Source of the DNA: Luteimonas sp. MC1825
GTDB taxonomy: Bacteria > Pseudomonadota > Gammaproteobacteria > Xanthomonadales > Xanthomonadaceae
Assembly (NCBI RefSeq): GCF_014764385.1
Contig: NZ_CP061714.1
Location: forward strand, 434,001 to 498,000
DNA length: 64,000 bases
Direction of reading: 5' to 3'
The first letter of the stretch is position 1. Every line of letters starts with the position of its first letter. Both the position numbers and the translations under genes were made by a program. Under the pieces are notes generated by a model that worked only from the letters and a program-made list of their open reading frames with translations, was not told the origin of the DNA and did no database searches. Shown here one piece after another: positions 38,704-51,026 of this stretch.

Positions 38704-39033
38704 ATGAAACGCTGGTACGGAAAACTCCTGGGCTTCATCGCCGGCTGGCTGCTGCTGCGCCACCCGGCCGGCGGGCTGATCGGCCTGCTGATCGGCCACG
38801 CCTTCGACAGCGACTGGTTCCGGCGCCCGGCCGACAACGCCTATGGCGTGCTGGGCCTCGGCCCGGACGCCAGCGATGCCGATGTCGACCGCGCCTACCG
38901 GCGGCTGATCGCGCAGTACCACCCCGACCGTCTTGGCGGCGCCGCCGAGGAGCTGCGCGACCAGGCCGAGCGCCGCGCACGCGAGATCAACGGCGCGTAC
39001 GACCGCATCCGCGCGCTGCGCAAACCGCGCTGA
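38704..39033 (+). CDS. Small membrane-anchored J-domain protein
   Basis: A 109-residue protein with an N-terminal membrane segment ([28 protein letters not shown] split by a Pro-Gly turn), a short linker and a C-terminal J domain (about 46-108) with the DnaK-stimulating HPD in AQYHPDRL. This is the DjlA plan with the central TerB-like domain missing. It should recruit DnaK to the inner membrane. ATG 38704 is nearly leaderless. rpe follows after 46 nt, so it may be the first gene of the rpe-trp run. Confidence 0.85.
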
Positions 39034-39079
39034 CCGCGACGGTCGCCGCACCGCATCCTTCCCCCTGTCCGGACCCGCC

Positions 39080-39751
39080 ATGCAACCGACCGTCATCGCC
39101 CCCTCGATCCTCTCGGCGGATTTCGCCCGCCTTGGCGAGGAGGTCGACAACGTGCTCGCCGCCGGCGCCGACTGGGTGCACTTCGACGTGATGGACAACC
39201 ATTACGTGCCCAACCTCACCATCGGCCCACTGGTCTGCTCCGCGCTGCGCAGGCATGGCGTGACCGCGCCGATCGACGTGCACCTGATGGTGTCGCCGGT
39301 GGACCGCATCGTCGGCGATTTCGCCGAGGCCGGCGCCACGCTGATCAGCTTCCACCCGGAAGCGAGTTCGCACGTGCACCGCACGATCCAGCTGATCCGC
39401 GCTGCCGGCTGCCAGCCGGGGCTGGTGCTGAATCCGGCGACCCCGGTCGAGGTGCTCGATTACGTGCTCGACGAACTCGACCTGGTGCTGCTGATGTCGG
39501 TCAATCCGGGGTTTGGCGGCCAGGCCTTCATTCCCTCCGCGCTCGACAAGCTGCGCGCGGTGCGCGCGCGCATCGATGCCAGCGGCCGTGATGTGCGCCT
39601 GGAGATCGACGGCGGCGTGAAGCCGGACAACATCGGCGCGATCGCCGCCGCCGGTGCCGACACCTTCGTCGCCGGCTCGGCGATCTTCAGCCAGCCGGAT
39701 TACGCCGAGGTCATCGCGCGCATGCGCGCGCACGCCGCCGCGGGGACCTGA
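39080..39751 (+). CDS. rpe: Ribulose-phosphate 3-epimerase Rpe
   Basis: Interconverts ribulose 5-phosphate and xylulose 5-phosphate in the pentose phosphate pathway. 223 residues, TIM barrel with metal-binding residues in [17 protein letters not shown] and DVHLMV, and the signature [10 protein letters not shown] near LEIDGGV. rpe next to trp genes is common in Gammaproteobacteria. Its TGA shares the A with the yegS ATG (overlap 1 nt). Confidence 0.98.
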
Positions 39752-40698
39752 TGGCCGCGCCGCGCTGGAGGCTGGTGCTCAACGGCAAGTCGGCCGGCGA
39801 CGACGCGCTGCGCGATGCGGTCACCGCGATCCGCGATCGCGGCGTGGCGCTGGACGTGCGCGTCACGTGGGAAGCGGGTGATGCGGAGCGCCATGTGTCC
39901 GAAGCGATCGCCGACGGCGTGGCGACGATCATCGCCGCCGGTGGCGACGGCACGCTGAGCGAGGTCGCGGCTGCACTGGCGCGCCGCGACGCCGCTACCG
40001 ACGCGCTGCCCTCGATCGCGCTGGTGCCGTTGGGCACCGCCAATGACTTCGCGAGCGCGGCCGGGATCCCCGACGCGCCGCTCGACGCCATGATGCTGGC
40101 GCTGCAGCAGCCGGCCACGCTGGTCGACCTGCTGCGCATCGAGGCCGACGACGGCGCGCACTGGGCCGCAAACCTGGCCAGCGGCGGGTTCGGCACGGAT
40201 GTCACGGTGGAAACCAGCGAGGGCATGAAGAAGCTGCTCGGCGGTCTCGCGTACGTGGTCACCGGCATGGCCAAGCTCGGCCGCATCGATCCGGTCTCCG
40301 CGCGCTTCAAGGGCCCCGGATTCGAATGGAGCGGCGACTTCATCGCGCTCGGCCTTGGCAACGGGTCGCAGGCGGGCGGTGGCCAGGCGCTGTGTCCCGA
40401 TGCGCTGGTCGACGATGGCCTGCTCGAGCTGACCATCGTCCCCACCCTCGAGGGCGAGGTGGCGGCGACCTTCGGCACGCTGCTGGCCGACGGCAGGCAC
40501 GCCGCGCTCGATCGCGTCGCGGTGCGCACGCGCCTGCCCTGGGTGGAGGTGGCCTCCGACGCGCCGCTCACGCTGAACCTGGATGGCGAGCCGGTGACCT
40601 GCACGCACTTCCGCGTCGAATGCGTCGCCGCGCGCCTGCGCATGCACTTGCCGGACGGCAGCCCGCTGCTCTCCGCGAACAGGTCGCGCACACCATGA
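39751..40698 (+). CDS. yegS: YegS-like lipid kinase
   Basis: A 315-residue protein of the diacylglycerol kinase catalytic-domain family. The nucleotide-binding [10 protein letters not shown] is intact (about 64-73), with [12 protein letters not shown] and the C-terminal [10 protein letters not shown] and LDGEP segments characteristic of YegS. E. coli YegS phosphorylates phosphatidylglycerol in vitro; the true substrate is uncertain. It overlaps rpe at the start and trpE at the end (ATGA), so it is locked into the trp transcript. Confidence 0.92.
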
Positions 40699-42167
40699 CG
40701 CCCGACGAATTCCAGCGCCACGCCGATGCCGGCCACACCCGCATCCCGGTGATGCGCGAAGTGCTGTCGGACCTGGACACGCCGCTGTCGGTGTACCTGA
40801 AGCTGGCCGACGGCCCCAATACCTACCTGTTCGAGTCGGTGGAGGGCGGCGAACGCTTCGGCCGCTATTCCATCATCGGCCTGCCGGCGACGCGCGTGTA
40901 CGCCTTCCACGGCCACGTGCTCAGCGTGCGCGAGCACGGCGAGGTGGTGGAAACGCGCGCGGTCGCCGATCCATTCGCCGAAGTCGAACACCTGCGCGCC
41001 GCGCATTCGGTGCCGCGCATCGCCGGGCTGCCGGGGTTCACCGGCGGCCTGGTGGGCTGGTTCGGCTTCGAGTGCATCGGCTACGTCGAGCAACGCCTCG
41101 ATGGTGGCGACACGCCGGACGAGCTCGGCACGCCGGACATCCTGCTGATGGAGTCCGACGAGCTCGCGGTGTTCGACAACCTCAAGGGCCGCCTGTACCT
41201 GGTGGTGCACGCCGACCCGCGCGAGCCGCAGGCGCTGGCACGTGCCAACCGTCGCCTCGACGCGCTGGTGCATCGCCTGCGCAGCGGCGGCGCGGCGTAC
41301 CCCGAAATGCTGCAGCCGGCGGCACTCGACGAGGCGGATTTCGTTTCCGGGTTCACACGTGACGGCTTCATCGATGCGGTGAAGCGCTGCCAGGAGTACA
41401 TCGCCGCCGGCGACGTGTTCCAGGTGGTGCTGTCGCAGCGGCTGTCGGTGCCGTTCCACGCGCGCCCGGTGGATGTCTACCGCGCGCTGCGCGCGTTGAA
41501 CCCGTCGCCGTACATGTATTTCCTCGACGTCGGCGGCACCCAGGTGGTGGGCAGCTCGCCGGAGATCCTGGTGCGCCAGCAGGGCGACCTGGTCACCGTG
41601 CGCCCGATTGCCGGCACCCGCCCGCGCGGCGCCACGCCGGAAGAAGACGCCGCGCTCGAGGCCGAGCTGCTGGCCGACCCCAAGGAGCGCGCCGAGCACC
41701 TGATGCTGATCGACCTCGGCCGCAACGACGTCGGCCAGGTCGCGCGCCCGGGCACGGTGGAGATGGGCGAGCGCTTCGTGATCGAGCGCTACAGCCACGT
41801 CATGCACATCGTCAGCGAGGTCACCGGGCGACTGCGCGACGGCCTGTCGTACACCGACGTGCTGCGCGCCACGTTCCCCGCCGGCACGGTGAGCGGCGCG
41901 CCCAAGATCCGCGCGCTGGAGATCATCCGAGAGCTCGAGCCGGTCAAGCGCAACGTGTACGCGGGCAGCATCGGCTACATCGGCTGGCACGGCGACGCCG
42001 ATACCGCGATCGCCATCCGCACCGCGGTGATCCAGGACGGCCGCCTGCACGTGCAGGCCGGCGCCGGCATCGTCTACGACTCCGACCCGGTGAAGGAGTG
42101 GGAGGAGACGATGAACAAGGGGCGCGCGCTGTTCCGCGCGGTGGCGCAGGCGGCCGGCGGGCTGTAG
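40695..42167 (+). CDS. trpE: Anthranilate synthase component I TrpE
   Basis: Chorismate + ammonia (from TrpG) to anthranilate, first step of tryptophan synthesis. 490 residues. The chorismate-binding core is complete ([64 protein letters not shown]). The Trp feedback site is LFESVE, near the usual LLES. The start is fixed by the ATGA overlap with yegS. There is therefore no room for a leader-peptide attenuator directly in front of trpE. Confidence 0.97.
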
Positions 42168-42224: not shown

Positions 42225-42806
42225 ATGCTGCTGATGATCGACAACTACGACAGCTTCACCTTCAACCTCGTGCAATACCTGCAGGTGCTGGGTGCCGAGG
42301 TGCGCGTGGAGCGCAACGATGCGCTCGATGTCGACGCCATCGCGCGCATGGCGCCGGAGCACATCGTGCTGTCGCCAGGACCCTGCGCGCCCGACCAGGC
42401 CGGCATCTGCCTGGCGGTGATCGAGCAGCTCGGCCCGCGCATCCCGATCCTGGGCGTGTGCCTCGGCCACCAGGCCATCGGCCAGGCCTATGGCGGTCGC
42501 GTGGTGCGCGCCAAGCGGATCATGCACGGCAAGACCTCGCCGATCCGCCACACCGGCGCTGGCGTCTTCAGCAGCCTGCCGGATGGCTACGAGGCTACCC
42601 GCTACCATTCACTGGTGGTCGAGCAGCACAGCCTGCCGGACTGCCTGGAAGTCACCGCCTGGACCGACGACGCCGATGGCGGCCGCGAGGAGATCATGGG
42701 CCTCCGGCACCGCGAGCACCCGGTGCAGGGCGTGCAGTTCCATCCCGAATCGATCCTCAGCCAGCACGGCCACGCGCTGCTGCGCAACTTCCTCGAACAG
42801 GTTTGA
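42225..42806 (+). CDS. trpG: Anthranilate synthase component II (glutamine amidotransferase) TrpG
   Basis: Supplies ammonia from glutamine to TrpE. 193 residues from ATG 42225 (a second in-frame ATG lies 9 nt later). Class I amidotransferase triad: Cys79 in GVCLGHQ, His173 and Glu175 in [17 protein letters not shown] and KTSPIRHTG are typical of the PabA/TrpG group, and it may also serve PabB. It follows trpE after 57 nt. Confidence 0.97.
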
Positions 42807-42814
42807 AGCACACG

Positions 42815-43855
42815 ATGTCCATCACCCCCCACGAGGCCCTGCAACGGACCATCGAGCACCGCGAGATCTTCGAAGACGAGATGGTCGACCTCATGCGCCA
42901 GGTGATGCGCGGCGACGTGTCGCCGCTGATGACCGCGGCGATCATCGTCGGCCTGCGGGTGAAGAAGGAAACGGTGGGCGAGATCACCGGCGCGGCGCGC
43001 GCGATGCGCGAGCTGGCGCTGAAGGTGGACGTGGCCGACCGTCGCCACCTGGTCGACATCGTCGGCACCGGCGGCGACGGCGCCAACACCTTCAACATCT
43101 CCACAGCGTCGAGCTTCGTGATCGCCGCGGCAGGCGGCAAGGTCGCCAAGCACGGCGGGCGCAGCGTGTCCTCCACCTCGGGCAGCGCCGATGCGTTCGA
43201 AGCCCTGGGCGTCACCATCGAGCTGCCGCCGGCGGGGGTGGCGGAATCGATCGCGCGCACCGGCATCGGTTTCATGTACGCACCGGCCTACCACCCTGCG
43301 ATGAAGGTGGTGGCCCCGGTGCGCCGCGAGATGGGCGTGCGCACGCTGTTCAACATCCTCGGGCCGCTGACCAACCCCGCTGGCGCGCCCAACATTTTGA
43401 TGGGCGTGTTCCATCCTGACCTTGTCGGCATCCAGGTGCGCGTGCTGCAGGAGCTGGGCGCCGAGCGCGCGCTGGTGGTCTGGGGCCGCGACGGCATGGA
43501 CGAGATCTCGCTGGGCGCCGGGACCCTGGTCGGCGAACTGCGCGACGGCCAGGTGCGCGAGTACGAGATCCATCCCGAGGATTTCGGCATCGCCATGGCC
43601 GCCAGCCGCAACCTGCGCGTCGATGGCGCGGCGGCGTCGCGTGACATGGTGCTGGACGCGATCGGCAACGCCGACGGGCTCCCCGGCAGCATCGTGGCGC
43701 TGAACGCGGGTGCTGCGCTGTATGTCGCCGGGGTCGCCGCATCGATCGCCGAGGGCGTGGTGCTGGCGCGCGCCACCATTGCCTCGGGCGCGGCGCTGGC
43801 CAAGCTGCGCGAATTCGCGTCCGCCACCGCCGCCATCGCCGCCGCGACGCCCTGA
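42815..43855 (+). CDS. trpD: Anthranilate phosphoribosyltransferase TrpD
   Basis: Anthranilate + PRPP to phosphoribosyl-anthranilate. 346 residues from ATG 42815, 8 nt after trpG. The PRPP and anthranilate sites are visible: [50 protein letters not shown] and GRDGMDEIS. In the usual order trpC follows; here the next three genes are for cyanophycin metabolism. Confidence 0.98.
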
Positions 43856-43981
43856 CACCGGCGCGCGCGGGGCCGGCGGCGCGGCCTGCGTGCTATTTTC
43901 AAGCCTTCGTGGCATCCGCGTGATGCCATCCATTGAACATCGCCATGGCGCCGGGGGCGCCTGGCCGGGAGTGTGTGCTGC
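43856..43981. promoter_or_regulatory. Gap between trpD and cphB, possible internal promoter or attenuator
   Basis: 126 nt, the largest gap in the rpe-to-HAD run. It contains a T-rich patch with TATTTT (43894-43899), a hairpin GGCATC-cgcgt-GATGCC (43911-43927) and a second GGCGCC-ggg-GGCGCC (43947-43961) close to the cphB ribosome site. No good -35 is seen. It could set cph expression separately from trpEGD. Confidence 0.35.
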
Positions 43982-44824
43982 ATGTGTCCTAGCAAGGTCG
44001 CCGACGGCGAAGAGCGTGGCTGGATCGTTCCCATCGGCGGTGCCGAGGACAAGGAAACCGGGCGCAGGATCCTCAAGCGCTTCGTGGAGCTGTGTGGCGG
44101 CCGCGATGCCGACATCGCCATCATCCCCACCGCCAGCCGCCTGGCCGACACCGGGCCGCGCTACGAGGACCTGTTCAACCGGCTCGAGGCCGGACGCGCG
44201 CGCTCGGTGCCGTTCGCCTCGCGCGAGGACGGCGGGCGTGACGCCTACCTGCGGCAGCTGGAGGACGCCACCGGGGTGTTCATCACCGGCGGCAACCAGC
44301 TGCGCCTGTCGACCATCCTCGGCGGCACCGCGGCGGCCAAGCTGATCCGCGAACGCAATGCCAGCGGCGTGCATGTCGGCGGCACCAGCGCCGGCGCCAG
44401 CATCCTCAGCGAGCACATGATCGCGTTCGGCAAGGAAGGGTCGTCGCCGCGCGCCAGCAGCGTGCGGCTGGCGCCGGGCCTCGGCCTGACCAACCGCTTC
44501 ATCATCGACCAGCACTTCCGCGAGCGCGACCGCCTCGGCCGGCTGGTGGCGGCGCAGGCCTACAACCCGTTCGCGATCGGCATCGGGCTCGACGAGGACA
44601 CCGCGGCGTTCATCGCACCCGACAACACGCTCGAGGTCGAGGGCAGCGGTTCGATCACCGTGGTGGATGCCAGCGGCCTGCAGTTCTCGTCGATGGCCGA
44701 AGCCGGCCAGGATGATCCGGTGTGCCTGCTCGGCCTCACCGTACACATCCTGGTGGCGGGCGCCACCTACAACCTGCACACGCGCCGCGCGTCGCCCGGT
44801 ACATTGGCCGACACCCACGATTGA
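43982..44824 (+). CDS. cphB: Cyanophycinase CphB
   Basis: Serine peptidase of family S51 that cuts the beta-Asp-Arg polymer cyanophycin into dipeptides in the cytosol. 280 residues from ATG 43982, with GGGAG 10 nt upstream; the in-frame GTG 43973 is too close to that site. The nucleophile is Ser136 in GGTSAGAS, with the family segments WIVPIGGAEDKE, IIPTASRLAD, ITGGNQLRLS and IDQHFRERDRLGRL. No signal peptide, so this is the intracellular CphB, not the extracellular CphE type. It sits inside the trp operon just before cphA. Confidence 0.95.
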   Translation: MCPSKVADGEERGWIVPIGGAEDKETGRRILKRFVELCGGRDADIAIIPTASRLADTGPRYEDLFNRLEAGRARSVPFASREDGGRDAYLRQLEDATGVFITGGNQLRLSTILGGTAAAKLIRERNASGVHVGGTSAGASILSEHMIAFGKEGSSPRASSVRLAPGLGLTNRFIIDQHFRERDRLGRLVAAQAYNPFAIGIGLDEDTAAFIAPDNTLEVEGSGSITVVDASGLQFSSMAEAGQDDPVCLLGLTVHILVAGATYNLHTRRASPGTLADTHD

Positions 44825-44851
44825 TCCAAACGCCACCTTGAAGGGAACCAC

Positions 44852-47644
44852 ATGCGCGTCCTGAACCGTTCCGTCTACGTCGGTCCATCGCTGTACGCGC
44901 ACTTCCCGGTGATCCGCCTCGAGCTCGACCTGGGCCTGCTGGAGCAGTGGCCCACCGCGCGCCTGGGTGCCGGCTTCATCGACGGACTGGTCGCCGCGTT
45001 GCCGGGGCTGGCCGAACACGGCTGTTCGTACCGCGAACCCGGCGGCTTCCTGCGCCGGCTGCGCGAAGGCCAGGGCACCTGGCTCGGCCACGTGCTGGAG
45101 CACGTCGCGATCGAGCTGCAGAACGTCGCCGGCGAAGATGTCACGTTCGGCAAGACCCGCGGCATCGATGAGGACCGCCCGGGCGTCTACTCGGTGGTGT
45201 ACGAGTACGCGCAGCGCGAAGAGGGCATCGCCGCCGGCGAGCTCGCGCTGAAGCTGCTGGAATCGCTGCTGCCCGAGGCACTGCGCACGCCGGGCAGCGT
45301 GCCCGATGGCTGGGAATGGGAGGAGGCGCTGACCGCGTTCATCCGCTACGCACAGCGACGCCAGCTGGGTCCCTCGACCGCATCCCTGGTGCGTGCCGCC
45401 GAGGAGCGCGATATCCCCTGGATGCGCCTCAACGAGCAGTCGCTGGTGCAGTTCGGCCACGGCAAGTACCAGCAGCGCATCCAGGCCACGGTCACCGGGC
45501 GCACCTCGCACATCGCCGTGGAGCTTGCCGGCGACAAGGAGGAAACCAACAAGATCCTCGGCGCGCTGGGCCTGCCGGTGCCGCGTCAGATCATGGCCAA
45601 CAGCCAGACCGACGCCATCAAGGCGGCGAACCGCCTTGGTGGGTCCGTGGTGCTGAAGCCGTGGAACGGCAATCACGGCCGCGGCATCACCATCGACGTG
45701 CGCGGCGACGACGCCATCCGTGACGCATTCAACGTCGCGCGCGAGCATTCGCGCTCGGTGATCGTGGAGACCTTCCAGCCCGGCGACGACCACCGCCTGC
45801 TGGTGGTTGACGGCGAACTGGTCGCCGCCACCCGGCGTACGCCCGGCCACGTGGTGGGCGACGGCCGCAGCACCATCGCCGAGCTGGTGGAGGTGGTGAA
45901 CCAGGATCCACGGCGTGGCGTGGGCCACGAGAAGGTGCTGACGCGGCTCGAGCTCGACGACGCGGCGGCACTGATGATGGAGCGCGTGGGCATGGCCGCG
46001 GACTCGGTGCCCGCCGAAGGCGAGGTGGTGTACCTGCGCGCAACCGCCAACCTGTCCACCGGCGGCACCGCCACCGACGTCACCGACACCATCCATCCAG
46101 ACAACCGCGACATGGCCGAGCGCGCGGTGCGTGCGATCGGGCTGGACGTCGGCGGCGTGGATTTCATCACGCCCAACATCAACGAGAGCTACCGCACCAT
46201 CGGCGGCGCGATCTGCGAGGTCAACGCCGCACCCGGGTTCCGCATGCACGTGGCGCCCAGCGAGGGCACGCCGCGCGATCCGGCCGGGCGCGTGATCGAC
46301 ATGCTGTTCCCGACCGGCGCATCGACGCGCGTGCCGATCGCGGCCATCACCGGCACCAACGGCAAGACCACCACCGCGCGCATGCTGGCGCACATCACCA
46401 AGATGGCCGGCTACACGCCCGGGCTCACCACCACCGACGGCGTGTACATCGACGGCCAGCGCACCGTGGAGGGCGACATGACAGGGCCGACCTCGGCGCG
46501 CATGGTGCTGCGCGACCCGCAGATCGACATGGCGGTGCTGGAGACAGCGCGCGGCGGGCTGCTGCGCGCCGGCATGGGCGTGCGCCACATCGACGTGGGC
46601 GCGGTGCTCAACGTTGCCGCCGACCACCTCGGCCTGAAGGGCATCGATACGCTGGAACAGCTCGCCGAGGTCAAGCGCGTGGTGGTGGAGGTGGCACGCG
46701 AATGCGCGGTGCTCAACGCCGACGACCCGCAGGTGCTGCGCATGTCGGCGTACACCGATGCGCGCAGCATCTGCTACGTGACCATGAATCCCTCGCATGC
46801 GCTGGTCCGCGAGCACATCCGCGCCGGTGGCCGCGCCTGCGCGCTGGAAGCCGGCGTCAACGGGCAGATGGTCACGCTGTACGACAAGGGCGCGCACCTG
46901 CCGCTGATGTGGACGCACCTCATACCGGCGACGCTCGAGGGCCGCGCGCTGCACAACGTGCAGAACGCGATGTTCGCCGCGGCCATGGCCTATGCGCTCG
47001 GCATCAAGCTCGATGCCATCCGCCAGGGCCTGCGCACCTTCGACTCCACGTTCTTCCAGGCGCCGGGGCGCATGAACGTGTTCGAGGAGCATCCGTTCAA
47101 GGTGGTGATGGACTACGCGCACAACGCCCACGCGGTGGCGATGATGGCCGGGCTGGCGCAGCGGCTTGACGTGGCCGGGCGCCGGATCGTGGTCGTCGCC
47201 GGGCCGGGCGACCGCCGCGACGAGGACCTGGTGGCGATCGCCGGCAGCGTGGCCGGCAAGTTCGACCACTACATCGTGCGCCGCGACGACGGCCTGCGCG
47301 GCCGCGACGGCGACGAGGTGCCGCGCATCATCGCGGACGCGTTGCGCGCCGCCGGCGTGGGCGACGCCATGATCAGCGTGATCCCCGACGAGCAGGCCGC
47401 CGTGGATGCCGCGCTGCGCATGGGCCGCCCTGGCGACCTGGTGCTGGTGCTGGCCGACGCGCTGACCCGCACCTGGAAGCAGATCACCAAGTTCCGCGCC
47501 GATGGCGAGGCACCGCCCGCGCCGGTGCGCGTCGAGCCGCCGACGCTGTCGGAGTCCGAGCACGACGCGGCGACGGTCGCGGCGATGGACGGCGTGGTGC
47601 GCGACGAACGCGGCCTGGTATTCGAGCGTGAAGAGAGCGACTGA
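44852..47644 (+). CDS. cphA: Cyanophycin synthetase CphA
   Basis: Builds the storage polymer multi-L-arginyl-poly-L-aspartate from Asp, Arg and ATP without ribosomes. 930 residues, slightly longer than the usual 870-900, with an extra charged C-terminal tail. Domains in order: N-terminal domain (about 1-165; SVYVGPSLYAHFPVIRL), ATP-grasp domain for Asp addition (about 165-485; glycine loop LKPWNGNHGRGI near residue 268, EVNAAPGFRMH near its end), and a Mur-ligase-like domain for Arg addition with P-loop GTNGKTTT at about 501 and DYAHNAHAV. All look intact. It follows cphB by 27 nt. The product would store nitrogen and carbon. Confidence 0.96.
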   Translation: MRVLNRSVYVGPSLYAHFPVIRLELDLGLLEQWPTARLGAGFIDGLVAALPGLAEHGCSYREPGGFLRRLREGQGTWLGHVLEHVAIELQNVAGEDVTFGKTRGIDEDRPGVYSVVYEYAQREEGIAAGELALKLLESLLPEALRTPGSVPDGWEWEEALTAFIRYAQRRQLGPSTASLVRAAEERDIPWMRLNEQSLVQFGHGKYQQRIQATVTGRTSHIAVELAGDKEETNKILGALGLPVPRQIMANSQTDAIKAANRLGGSVVLKPWNGNHGRGITIDVRGDDAIRDAFNVAREHSRSVIVETFQPGDDHRLLVVDGELVAATRRTPGHVVGDGRSTIAELVEVVNQDPRRGVGHEKVLTRLELDDAAALMMERVGMAADSVPAEGEVVYLRATANLSTGGTATDVTDTIHPDNRDMAERAVRAIGLDVGGVDFITPNINESYRTIGGAICEVNAAPGFRMHVAPSEGTPRDPAGRVIDMLFPTGASTRVPIAAITGTNGKTTTARMLAHITKMAGYTPGLTTTDGVYIDGQRTVEGDMTGPTSARMVLRDPQIDMAVLETARGGLLRAGMGVRHIDVGAVLNVAADHLGLKGIDTLEQLAEVKRVVVEVARECAVLNADDPQVLRMSAYTDARSICYVTMNPSHALVREHIRAGGRACALEAGVNGQMVTLYDKGAHLPLMWTHLIPATLEGRALHNVQNAMFAAAMAYALGIKLDAIRQGLRTFDSTFFQAPGRMNVFEEHPFKVVMDYAHNAHAVAMMAGLAQRLDVAGRRIVVVAGPGDRRDEDLVAIAGSVAGKFDHYIVRRDDGLRGRDGDEVPRIIADALRAAGVGDAMISVIPDEQAAVDAALRMGRPGDLVLVLADALTRTWKQITKFRADGEAPPAPVRVEPPTLSESEHDAATVAAMDGVVRDERGLVFEREESD

Positions 47645-47668
47645 CGATGAGCGCAGGCGGGCACTGAC

Positions 47669-49453
47669 GTGGTGGACGCATTCGAGGACTCGCGCCGGCT
47701 GACCGGTGCGAATGTCTATTTCGCCGGCCCCGGCGCCGCGCTGGAAACGGTGACCGGGCCCACGGTGGATGCCGCGACGCTCGCGCGCTGGGCCGGCAAC
47801 ATCGCCGCCGCGCGCGTGGCGCTCGGCTGGCCCGCTGGCGCGGTGCTGGCGCGTCCGCATGCCAGCGGCGCCTCGCTCGCGTTCGAGGCGCCGTTCGACC
47901 AGCTGTATGCCGCCACCGAGGTCAACGAGTGGGCGTGGTCCGCCGCGGTGGCGTCCACCGGTGGCCAGGCGGGCGACGAGGCCATGGCGCCGGGGCACGC
48001 GTCGCATCGCGATGCAGACGGCGCGCTGCACACCCTGCGCGCGGTGGCCGCGGCCGAGGCCAATCCACGGCTTGTGGCGCTGCGTGCCGCGGCGCACGCG
48101 CGCGGTCTGCCGTTCCTGTCCGACGACGACGAAGCCACGGTGGGCGCGGGCAGTGGCGCGGCGACCTGGCCGGTGCGCGCGCTGCCGTCGGCGGATGCAG
48201 TCGACTGGGCCGCGGTGCACGACACTCCCTGCGCGCTGGTCACCGGCTCCAACGGCAAGACCACCACCGTGCGCCTGGTGGCGGCGATGGCGCGCGCGCA
48301 TGGCTGGTTGACCGCGCACAGCTGCACCGATGGCGTGTTCTTCGACGGCGTGGAACTGGAGTCCGGCGACTACTCCGGCCCGACCGGCGCGCGCACCGCG
48401 CTGCGCCAGCCTCGGGCCGAGGCCGCGGTGCTGGAAACCGCGCGCGGCGGCCTGCTGCGCCGCGGCCTGGCCGTGGAGCGCGTACGTGCGGCGGTAGTGA
48501 CCAATGTCAGCGAGGACCACTTCGGCGAGTACGGCGTGCACGGACTGGCCGACCTCGCGCGGGTCAAGCTCACCGTGGCGCGTGCCGTGGCCGATGACGG
48601 CCTGCTGGTGCTCAACGCCGACGACGCGCTGCTGCGCGAGCTCGGCGCCGACAGCAGCCGGCCACTGGGCTGGTTCGCGCTGGATGCGGGGGCGCCATGG
48701 CTGGTGGCGCATCGCGCCCGCGGCGGCGCGACCTGCGGCGTGCACGCCGGTCGCCTGCAGCTGCACTGGCGGAGCCGGGACCACGACCTCGGCGCGGTGG
48801 CCGACATGCCGCTGGCGCTGGGCGGCCGCGCCACCTACAACGTCGCCAACATTGCCGCCGCGAGCCTCGCGGCGTCGGCCATGGGCGTGCCGCCGGCGAC
48901 GATCGCGTCCGCGCTGGCGCGCTTCGGTGCCGGCAGCGGCGACAACCCCGGGCGCCTGCAGCATTGGCGCTTCGACACGCTCGATGTGTTCGTCGACTAC
49001 GCGCACAACCCCGAGGGCCTGCACGGCTTCCTGCGCGCGATCGGCGCGGACCGGCGCACCGGTCGCCTGGCGATGATCCTCGGCCACGCCGGCAACCGCG
49101 AGGATGCCGACCTGCGAGCGGTGGCCGCCACCGCGGCGGCCTACCGCCCGGAGCTGGTGGTGCTGAAGGACATCGGCGGCTACGAGCGCGGCCGTACCGC
49201 GGGCGAGGTGGCCGGTATCATGCGTGCCACGCTGATTGCTTCGGGCGTCGGCACGGACGCAATCGAGACCCGTCTCGACGAGGTCGAGGCCGCGCGCCGA
49301 CCGCTCGAATGGGCGCGTGCCGGTGACCTGCTCGCGCTGCCGGTGCATGAACTTTCCGCGCGTGCCTGCGTGGTCCACCTGCTCGACGCGCTGCACGCGC
49401 AGGGCTGGCGGGCCGGCCAGCCGCTGCCCCCGAGAGAGGACGACATGCCATGA
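47669..49453 (+). CDS. Second Mur-ligase-fold protein of the cyanophycin locus
   Basis: A 594-residue protein homologous to the C-terminal Mur-ligase half of CphA: P-loop TGSNGKTTT at about 192, [28 protein letters not shown] and [12 protein letters not shown]. The N-terminal 180 residues show no ATP-grasp glycine loop, so it cannot repeat the Asp-adding step. Single-activity CphA2-type enzymes are known to join beta-Asp-Arg dipeptides; this could be functionally similar, or it could be an accessory or primer ligase. The start is GTG 47669 (or the adjacent GTG 47672), 24 nt after cphA. The stop overlaps the trpC ATG as ATGA. Confidence 0.82.
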
Positions 49454-50268
49454 ACGAACCCCGCCAGGACGTGCTGCGACGCATCCTCGCGCGCAAGGTG
49501 GAGGAAGTCGCCGAGCGCAGCGCCCGCGTGCCGCGCGAAGCGCTCGCCGCGCGCCTCGCCGACGCGCCCCCGGTGCGCGGCTTCGCGGCGGCCATCGAGC
49601 GCGTCGCCGCCTCGGGCCGTTCCGCGGTGATCGCCGAGGTCAAGAAGGCCAGCCCGTCGAAAGGCGTGATCCGCGCCGACTTCGATCCCGCGGCGATCGC
49701 GCGCAGCTACGAAGCCGGCGGCGCCGCCTGCCTGTCGGTGCTCACCGACATCGACTTCTTTCAGGGCGCCGATGCCTACCTGCAGGCCGCGCGCGACGCC
49801 TGCAGCCTGCCGGTGTTGCGCAAGGACTTCATCGTCGATGCGTACCAGGTCGACGAGGCACGCGTGCTCGGTGCCGATTGCGTGCTGTTGATCGTCGCCG
49901 CGCTCGACGACGCGCTGCTCGCCGCGCTCAGCGCGCAGGCGTTGTCGCTGGGCATGGACGTGCTGGCCGAGGTGCACGACGCCGACGAGTTCGCGCGCGC
50001 GCTGCGGCTGCCCGCAGTCGACGGCCGCGCGCCGCTGCTCGGGGTCAACAACCGCGACCTGCGCAGCTTCGAGGTGTCGCTGGACACCAGCGAGGCGCTG
50101 GCCGGCAGCGTGCCCGCGGGCCGGCGGCTGGTGTCGGAGAGCGGCATCATGACCACGGCCGATGTTTCGCGGCTGCGCGCGGCGGGCGTCGAGGCGTTCC
50201 TGGTCGGCGAGGCGTTCATGCGCGCAGACGACCCGGGCGAGGCGCTGCGCGCGCTGTTCGCGGCATGA
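49450..50268 (+). CDS. trpC: Indole-3-glycerol-phosphate synthase TrpC
   Basis: Closes the indole ring in tryptophan synthesis. 272 residues, TIM barrel with [56 protein letters not shown] and LVSESGIMT. It is the stand-alone enzyme without a TrpF domain. Its start overlaps the stop of the cyanophycin-locus ligase by 4 nt, so its translation should depend on ribosomes finishing that gene. The HAD phosphatase gene overlaps its own stop. trpF, trpB and trpA are not in the window. Confidence 0.98.
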
Positions 50269-51026
50269 GCAGCGTCGACCAACCGGACACGGCGCGCGGC
50301 GTGCCGCGCGCGGACGCGCCGCTGGTGGTGTTCGACTTCGACCACACCCTGTACGACGGCGACTCCGGCAGCCACCTGTTCGCCTGGCTGATCCGCCGCA
50401 GTCCCTGGCGCACGGCGCTGGCGCTGGTGATGGCGCCGGTGTTCGCGCCGATGGTGGCGTTCCTGCCGACCCGCCGCGTCGGCATCTCGGCGTTCGTCTG
50501 GGCCGGCACGGTCGGCTTCCATCGCCGTCGCGACCTCGATGACCTGATCGACACCTACGTCGACGGGCACGTCGAAGCCATCCGCGCCAAGCTGCTGCCG
50601 GTGGCGCTGGCGGTGATGCAGGCGCATCGCGAACGCGGTGACCGCGTGGTGGTGGCGACCGGCGCGCCGCCGGAACTGGCGCGCGCCATCCTCGCGTTCG
50701 TGGCCCACGAGGACGTGCCGGTGGTCGGCACGCTCGCCGGGCCGCGCTTTGGCGCGGTGGTCGCGGTGCGCCACTGCCACAACGAGGAAAAGATGCGCAT
50801 GCTGCGCGAGCGTGGATGGGGCGACATCGCCATCGCCTATTCCGACTCCAGTGCGGACCTGCCGCTGCTGCGCGCCGCGCGCTCGCCGGTGGTGGTCAAT
50901 CCCAAGCCCGGCGCGGTGGCGCTGTTCCGGCGCGAACTGCCGGCCGGCACGCCGATCCTCAACTGGGGTTGCCCGGACCGCGCGGGTGATCCGGTGCCGG
51001 CTCAGGCGACGAACAGCGCGCGGTAG
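50265..51026 (+). CDS. HAD-IB family phosphatase
   Basis: A 253-residue SerB-like HAD hydrolase with the nucleophile motif [11 protein letters not shown], motif [12 protein letters not shown], a conserved Lys region in HNEEKMRML, and motif [17 protein letters not shown] hydrophobic cap segment (about 38-62, [21 protein letters not shown]) may touch the membrane. The substrate is unknown; related proteins are often called PSP-like or acyl-phosphate phosphatases. ATGA overlap with trpC. The last 25 nt overlap the end of the convergent TauE/SafE gene. Confidence 0.88.

Follow-up and report, generated by a model that had tools for sequence, protein, structure and literature searches.

Organization of the locus

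The DNA analysed in this study, hereafter the window, is a stretch of 64 kilobases (kb) of Luteimonas sp. MC1825 (contig NZ_CP061714.1, positions 434,001 to 498,000), in which a cyanophycin cassette of three genes, cphB, cphA and a second Mur ligase gene designated lig2, lies between trpD and trpC of the tryptophan operon. All features described below are on the + strand. The gene before the insertion is trpD (42815-43855), encoding anthranilate phosphoribosyltransferase, which scores 403 bits against TIGR01245 (cut-off 199). After a gap of 126 nucleotides (nt) at 43856-43981 it is followed by cphB (43982-44824), a peptidase S51 (PF03575) cyanophycinase gene with 244.6 bits against TIGR02069 (cut-off 126.6), then by cphA (44852-47644), whose 930 amino acid product scores 1105.6 bits against the cyanophycin synthetase 1 model TIGR02068 (cut-off 850), and then by lig2 (47669-49453), which according to profile searches encodes a CphA-like Mur ligase of 594 amino acids without an ATP-grasp domain. 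The indole-3-glycerol-phosphate synthase gene trpC (49450-50268; NF001373, 376 bits against a cut-off of 317) starts within the end of lig2, the stop and the start sharing an ATGA at 49450-49453 that is a candidate site of translational coupling.

The five genes from trpD to trpC are co-directional with successive gaps of 126, 27, 24 and -4 nt. An earlier note on this DNA had described this embedding, the spacings and the ATGA overlap, and all of them were found to be exact. The overlaps which it had reported further upstream are also present: rpe (38933-39751) and yegS (39751-40698) share 1 nt, and yegS and trpE (40695-42167) share 4 nt. The trpE product passes its curated NCBIfam cut-off, while rpe, yegS and trpG (42225-42806) were identified from open reading frames, spacing and profile searches. 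Downstream, a HAD-IB hydrolase gene (50265-51026; PF12710) overlaps trpC by 4 nt, and a HAD gene follows trpC in all the compared loci that list trpC. The genes trpE, trpG, trpD and trpC are thus in the order of a split trp operon on one strand, but trpD and trpC are not neighbours, as the 5.6 kb cassette lies in between.

The window genome is a single contig of 2.92 Mb. In this complete genome trpC has one match at E values up to 1e-30, namely the gene behind the cassette, and cphA is the sole match above the cyanophycin synthetase cut-off. The possibility that the cassette is recent foreign DNA was rejected, its composition being like that of the trp genes: cphB, cphA and lig2 have a GC content of 0.70-0.75 and a third-position GC content of 0.89-0.92, in comparison to 0.68-0.73 and 0.90-0.93 for the trp genes. 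A search of the window for RNA families at gathering cut-offs returned nothing apart from one tRNA.

Distribution of the trp-linked cassette

A locus is called linked in this study when the cyanophycin cassette lies between trpD and trpC. A scan of named genomes with lig2, from which the best 80 of 241 loci were kept, has highlighted cphB-cphA-lig2 as a recurrent cassette ranging from Lysobacterales to Burkholderiales, Gemmatimonadota and Acidobacteriota. Among these loci trpD and trpC flank the cassette in L041, L042, L047, L050, L059 and L075, all from Luteimonas, Lysobacter or Thermomonas, and L087 is half-linked, with trpG-trpD ahead of the cassette and no trpC match behind it.

Of 149 family genomes surveyed, 139 have trpD and trpC on one contig. 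They are neighbours in 129 of these (median gap 351 nt, longest 1330 nt), and in every one of the remaining 10 they are split by a cyanophycin cassette; no gap exceeds 1.33 kb unless the cassette fills it. The cphA gene is present in 35 of the 149 genomes, 31 of which carry both trp genes, and 10 of the 31 are linked. Within the genus, trpC was found in 51 of 52 genomes (50 junctions were read together and the last one, G298, separately) and lig2 lies directly upstream of it in 12 of the 51, the order being split over two contigs in one of the 12 (G335). Seventeen of the 52 genomes carry cphA, which is linked in 12 and located elsewhere in 5, including L. arsenica, L. colneyensis and L. terricola; it is also unlinked in the Pseudoxanthomonas loci. 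After removal of duplicate records, 22 linked loci were available for comparison, comprising the 12 of the genus and, from outside it, L050, L075 and eight further family genomes.

The embedded order spans six genus codes in the family and, recurring in 22 genomes, is not a chance event. The earlier note had stated that tryptophan and cyanophycin genes are not normally linked, and this rarity is weakened by the recurrence. The comparison of trpD-trpC spacing which the note had proposed, run here on the family sample, has likewise shown that the order is not unique, and no description of it was found in the literature searched.

The 38 cassette-less junctions of the genus showed no pseudogene remnant of the cassette below E 0.017, one gap shorter than 30 nt being left out of this search. 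A small gene with an ABM domain (PF03992) lies between trpD and trpC in 16 of these 38 junctions (19 at a looser cut-off), L128, L130, L131, L134, L135 and L137 being among them. The same gene accompanies the cassette in 11 linked loci, ahead of it in 10 and behind it in G229. Two genomes, G054 (L150) and G226 (L127), have the cassette with no match to trpD or trpC and may be tryptophan auxotrophs. Beside an unlinked cassette of Pseudoxanthomonas (L148:12420-14909) there is an opposite-strand open reading frame whose start resembles aspartokinase/homoserine dehydrogenase, as judged by eye only.

A promoter-like element ahead of cphB

Side by side comparison of the trpD-cphB gaps revealed a common TGnTATTTT. 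In the window this element, which the earlier note had not described, reads TGCTATTTT (43891-43899) and lies 91 nt upstream of the cphB ATG; its TG is at 43891-43892 and its -10 hexamer at 43894-43899, so that it resembles an extended -10 promoter from which transcription would be expected to start near 43906. The form TGNTATTTT has a single match in the 64 kb window, where 0.04 is expected. In the 2.9 Mb genome there are 2 sites, in comparison to 3 in a reversed control, and the element was therefore rejected as a genome-wide set.

Upstream of the first cassette gene, TGNTATTTT was found in 5 of 7 distinct linked loci that begin with cphB, in none of 9 linked loci that begin with iadA (isoaspartyl dipeptidase) and in none of 75 unlinked loci, a set which holds some records twice and from which loci without cphB or with less than 160 nt upstream were dropped. 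The looser TGNTANNNT was found in 7/7, 2/9 and 23/75 of these loci, respectively, against a background of 110 in 7260 random pieces of 250 nt. The pattern was then predicted in seven further linked genomes and was present in all of them (5/7 for TGNTATTTT), bringing TGNTANNNT to 14/14 of the cphB-first linked loci of the discovery and prediction sets together. In these 14 loci the invariant letters T, G, T, A and T occupy the key positions of an extended -10. Among the 38 junctions of the genus that have no cassette, whose gaps measure 0-639 nt and in two cases cannot accommodate the pattern, TGNTANNNT occurs in only one; the contrast of 7/7 with 1/38 would have a probability of 2e-7 if the loci were independent, and as they are related its true strength is less. 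The single cassette-less case, G253 (L129), has a trpD-trpC gap of 82 nt with TGGTATTTT 73 nt before trpC. It can be conjectured that this is a deletion scar which left trpC under control of the former cph promoter.

The cassette is probably transcribed from a promoter of its own, because the extended -10-like TGnTAnnnT stands before cphB in 14/14 cphB-first linked loci and in 6/9 linked loci with iadA. This bears on the proposal of the earlier note that the cyanophycin genes are part of one transcript with tryptophan synthesis. Such a transcript, initiated at a promoter ahead of trpE or trpG, would place cyanophycin expression under the regulation of tryptophan synthesis, and it is consistent with the co-directional genes, with gaps of at most 126 nt along rpe-yegS-trpE-trpG-trpD-cphB and with the lack of any hairpin beyond composition after trpD. 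Moreover, in L141, L142 and L075 no gap between trpG and the HAD gene is wider than about 65 nt, and iadA starts within about 31 nt of the end of trpD. The embedding and the common direction thus stand, but the element in the trpD-cphB gap, absent from 37 of the 38 cassette-less junctions, weakens the single transcript, and we consider it unlikely, although read-through from trpD into cphB is possible.

An element of this kind might also be something other than a promoter, such as the terminator tail of trpD, a regulator site or a relic of the final codons of an iadA gene since lost. A GC-rich stretch with a folding energy of -23 kcal/mol precedes it in the window, a consensus scan gives a weak terminator at this place, and the element is similar to the iadA tail CGT GGT A.. 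TTC of related cassettes. However, in the part of the window gap that precedes the element no terminator hairpin exceeds what composition alone would give, and over the 14 loci hairpin energies are the same as those of shuffled sequences (mean z -0.04). The T run is also broken in some loci (TAAGGT, TACGGT, TAACTT), yet TG, TA and the last T stay while the flanks vary. The terminator reading is therefore unsupported, and a mere remnant fails to explain the rare codons found in living iadA tails, as described below. Taken together, a non-promoter role appears very improbable.

iadA and the element inside its tail

Outside the genus, the cassette begins with iadA in nine of the loci treated as linked, the half-linked L087 included; the L075 protein, for example, scores 372 bits against TIGR01975 (cut-off 331). 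Among the best 80 of 241 loci, iadA has a match in 41. In loci with iadA, TGNTANNNT occurs upstream of cphB in 6 of 9 linked and 5 of 46 unlinked cases, and all 11 matches (L050, L063, L065, L087, L112, L117, L141, L142, L144, L145 and L150) sit within the coding end of iadA as CGT (or CAT) GGT A.. TT. Here TGGTAnnTT is spelled by the rare codon GGT, preceded by CGT or CAT, shortly before the stop codon of iadA. Of 15 iadA genes in the cassette clade, 11 have this spelling, in contrast to none of 33 other iadA genes with a recognisable site, seven genes without such a site being left out, and it would be expected at about 1.5 percent from the codon use of the clade itself.

The iadA-tail site is a candidate promoter maintained within coding sequence. 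It seems that the element is part of the cassette, residing first in the iadA tail and then in the gap where iadA was lost. These rare-codon sites make a cassette with its own promoter more likely, and a single trp-driven transcript or a non-promoter element less so.

The trpC junction and the history of the cassette

A 4-nt overlap of lig2 and trpC (ATGA or GTGA), with starts chosen from the reading frame, was found in 14 of the 22 linked loci, comprising 11 of 12 in the genus (the exception is G316, with 9 nt) and 3 of 10 outside it (G208, G211 and G247). In the other linked loci outside the genus lig2 and trpC are 3, 3, 3, 18, 58 and 65 nt apart, and in one case 399 nt with the ABM gene in between. 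The expectation of the earlier note that trpC translation depends on the preceding cyanophycin gene is in keeping with this conservation, and coupling of trpC to lig2 may be inferred from it.

In a CphA tree of 38 rows, in which L087 was counted as linked, L145 was left out and G054 was placed among the unlinked, the 22 linked rows and 13 unlinked rows form one clade with a support of 99 in the Shimodaira-Hasegawa-like approximate likelihood ratio test (SH-aLRT), and the other three rows are an unlinked outgroup. A wider tree of 55 rows has a corresponding clade of 29 rows, also with a support of 99. An exclusive clade of linked cassettes was rejected by the approximately unbiased (AU) test (p 4.4e-7), the tested group having been named after the first tree was seen. 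The linkage label needs 5 changes on the 38-row CphA tree and 12, at least 6 of them forced, on the TrpC tree. The latter is not a species tree, and TrpC could have moved together with the cassette. These trees fit both a single gain followed by several losses or moves and a history of several gains.

Such frequent changes are also what would be seen if the linkage were a neutral leftover, that is, a tolerated junction in which the cassette keeps its own promoter, the arrangement has no regulatory significance for tryptophan, and the linkage persists as its removal would damage trpC. The presence of cphA elsewhere in 5 of the 17 cphA-positive genus genomes and in Pseudoxanthomonas, together with the promoter-like element of unlinked cassettes, fits this explanation. 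On the other hand, nearly all linked members of the genus retain the 4-nt overlap and the order occurs in six genus codes, and the neutral explanation is regarded as a real but less probable possibility.

Enzymes of the cassette

The window CphA is a predicted cyanophycin synthetase 1. Besides passing its family cut-off, it contains the N (PF18921), ATP-grasp-type and Mur ligase domains and matches PDB entries 7lgm and 7lgn over its full length. HxxEH at 80-84 (H80, E83 and H84) as well as D591 and H592 are invariant in 7 aligned sequences. The published N-domain motif of CphA1 is Cx19HxxEH, whereas 21 residues lie between C58 and H80 in the window protein. CphB is a predicted cyanophycinase since it passes the TIGR02069 equivalog cut-off. 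CphA would polymerise Asp and Arg, CphB would release beta-Asp-Arg from the polymer and IadA, where it is present, would split this dipeptide and complete the cyanophycin cycle. In the window genome no match to IadA was found; it encodes two Asparaginase_2 proteins, the family of IaaA, which could take over the dipeptide-splitting step.

The lig2 product has only Mur ligase M and C domain matches. CphA2 is a CphA1-like enzyme that retains the ATP-grasp domain and acts through the ATP-grasp site. With 307.6 bits against the TIGR02068 cut-off of 850 and no ATP-grasp match at E 0.001 in a profile search, lig2 does not classify as a CphA1 nor, given the missing ATP-grasp match, as a CphA2. Its D283 and H284 and the P-loop residue K197 are invariant across 34 sequences, and if the alignment offset from 186 to 488 is gap-free, residues 283/284 fall on 585/586 of SuCphA1, where the double mutant D585A H586A inactivates the M domain. 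With these catalytic residues and the P-loop, lig2 is predicted to be a CphA-type Mur ligase. The lig2 model aligns with CphA1 over 548 residues (VIA-align), and the protein looks like CphA1 minus the ATP-grasp domain. It may descend from CphA and, having lost the domain that builds the backbone, act as a side-chain ligase.

Among the matches listed, the closest to lig2 is a protein of Luteimonas sp. MC1782 (98 percent). Of the 35 family genomes with cphA, 30 had their cphA locus read, and lig2 adjoins cphA in every one of these 30. Of 120 listed relatives, 25 exceed 700 amino acids, for example P0055. Six such sequences were aligned and contain a DUF559 (Vsr-like nuclease) segment in frame after residue ~108 of lig2. 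In L047:10276-10794 and L059:10278-10792 the segment is bordered by inverted repeats of 27-51 nt, which gives it the appearance of a mobile element accommodated within the enzyme. The window lig2 does not contain this segment.

Interpretation

The explanation which we favour, and hold to be probable without being secure, is that a cassette with its own promoter was inserted in the trp operon and later lost or moved repeatedly, and that trpC is now part of the cyanophycin transcription unit. In this scheme an [iadA]-cphB-cphA-lig2 cassette with an extended -10 promoter just upstream of cphB would have entered the trpD-trpC junction in relatives of Luteimonas, Thermomonas and Lysobacter, and several losses or moves would have followed. 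Luteimonas-like genomes, the window included, would have lost iadA and retained the element of its tail. The trpC and HAD genes would have become the tail of the cyanophycin unit, trpC being translationally coupled to lig2 through the 4-nt overlap. Transcription of trpC would then depend on the cph promoter, on trp read-through or on both.

Several observations weigh against this explanation. No -35 is conserved across the aligned cphB-first loci and the region gave no hit in a simple sigma-70 scan. As the element was initially spotted by visual inspection of aligned gaps, only the second set of seven loci is a prediction, and these are related to the first. TGNTANNNT is also found upstream of cphB in 3 of 3 unlinked loci of the genus and hence tracks the cassette and not the trp position. 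The iadA codon comparison is post hoc and uses related genes. As the linked CphA rows are not one clade, several gains are possible, and the reversed order of cassette and ABM gene in G229 is a hint of a separate insertion or of a rearrangement within the locus.

A further step can be speculated, in which the cph promoter has captured trpC so that the nitrogen-storage programme sets the tryptophan supply in Luteimonas, and lig2 is a new side-chain ligase which adds arginine or another amino acid to the polymer in order to modify or repair it; this extension is at present rather improbable. Co-regulation under amino-acid surplus, as suggested in the earlier note, would likewise be a conjecture. 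The layout nevertheless offers a simple test of whether storage-polymer production controls an essential biosynthetic step.

Comparison with known systems

Cyanophycin clusters and trp operons have each been well studied, yet they are unlinked in the literature searched, which covered few subscription journals and contained no description of cyanophycin genes linked to a trp operon. The arrangement is real and recurrent and apparently undescribed in that literature. The nearest systems are the clusters of cphA1 and cyanophycinase genes, which in some cases include iadA or iaaA (Sharon and Schmeing 2023, PMC10206079). The present cassette resembles them in its adjacent cphB and cphA and in the frequent iadA, whereas in the part of that paper available an embedding between trpD and trpC is unmentioned, and the terms 'Mur ligase' and 'Lysobacter' are absent from its main text. 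In Lysobacter capsici AZ78, a member of the same family, cphB is likewise directly followed by cphA and the authors have tied the pair to starvation survival (PMC4742617); it is reported as a cluster of two genes and the word 'tryptophan' is absent from the main text.

In case of lig2, a second CphA-like gene adjoining cphA is known from Accumulibacter and others (PMC10687191), but in the part of that article available neither the lig2 domain architecture nor a trp context is described for these neighbouring copies. Like lig2, CphA2 is a CphA1 relative with a single active site, as far as the accessible parts of the sources go (PMC10206079, PMC9262961); lig2 differs in having no ATP-grasp domain and in keeping the Mur ligase residues. 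As no role has been assigned to lig2 in the literature seen, it is a ready target for biochemistry. Further, the same trpEGDC order is known from the split trp operon of a Sargasso Sea survey (PMC2395257, as available), whereas in the window a 5.6 kb storage-polymer cassette parts D and C. In comparison to these systems, the arrangement is best seen as a variant gene order with a probable internal promoter and a putatively coupled trpC.

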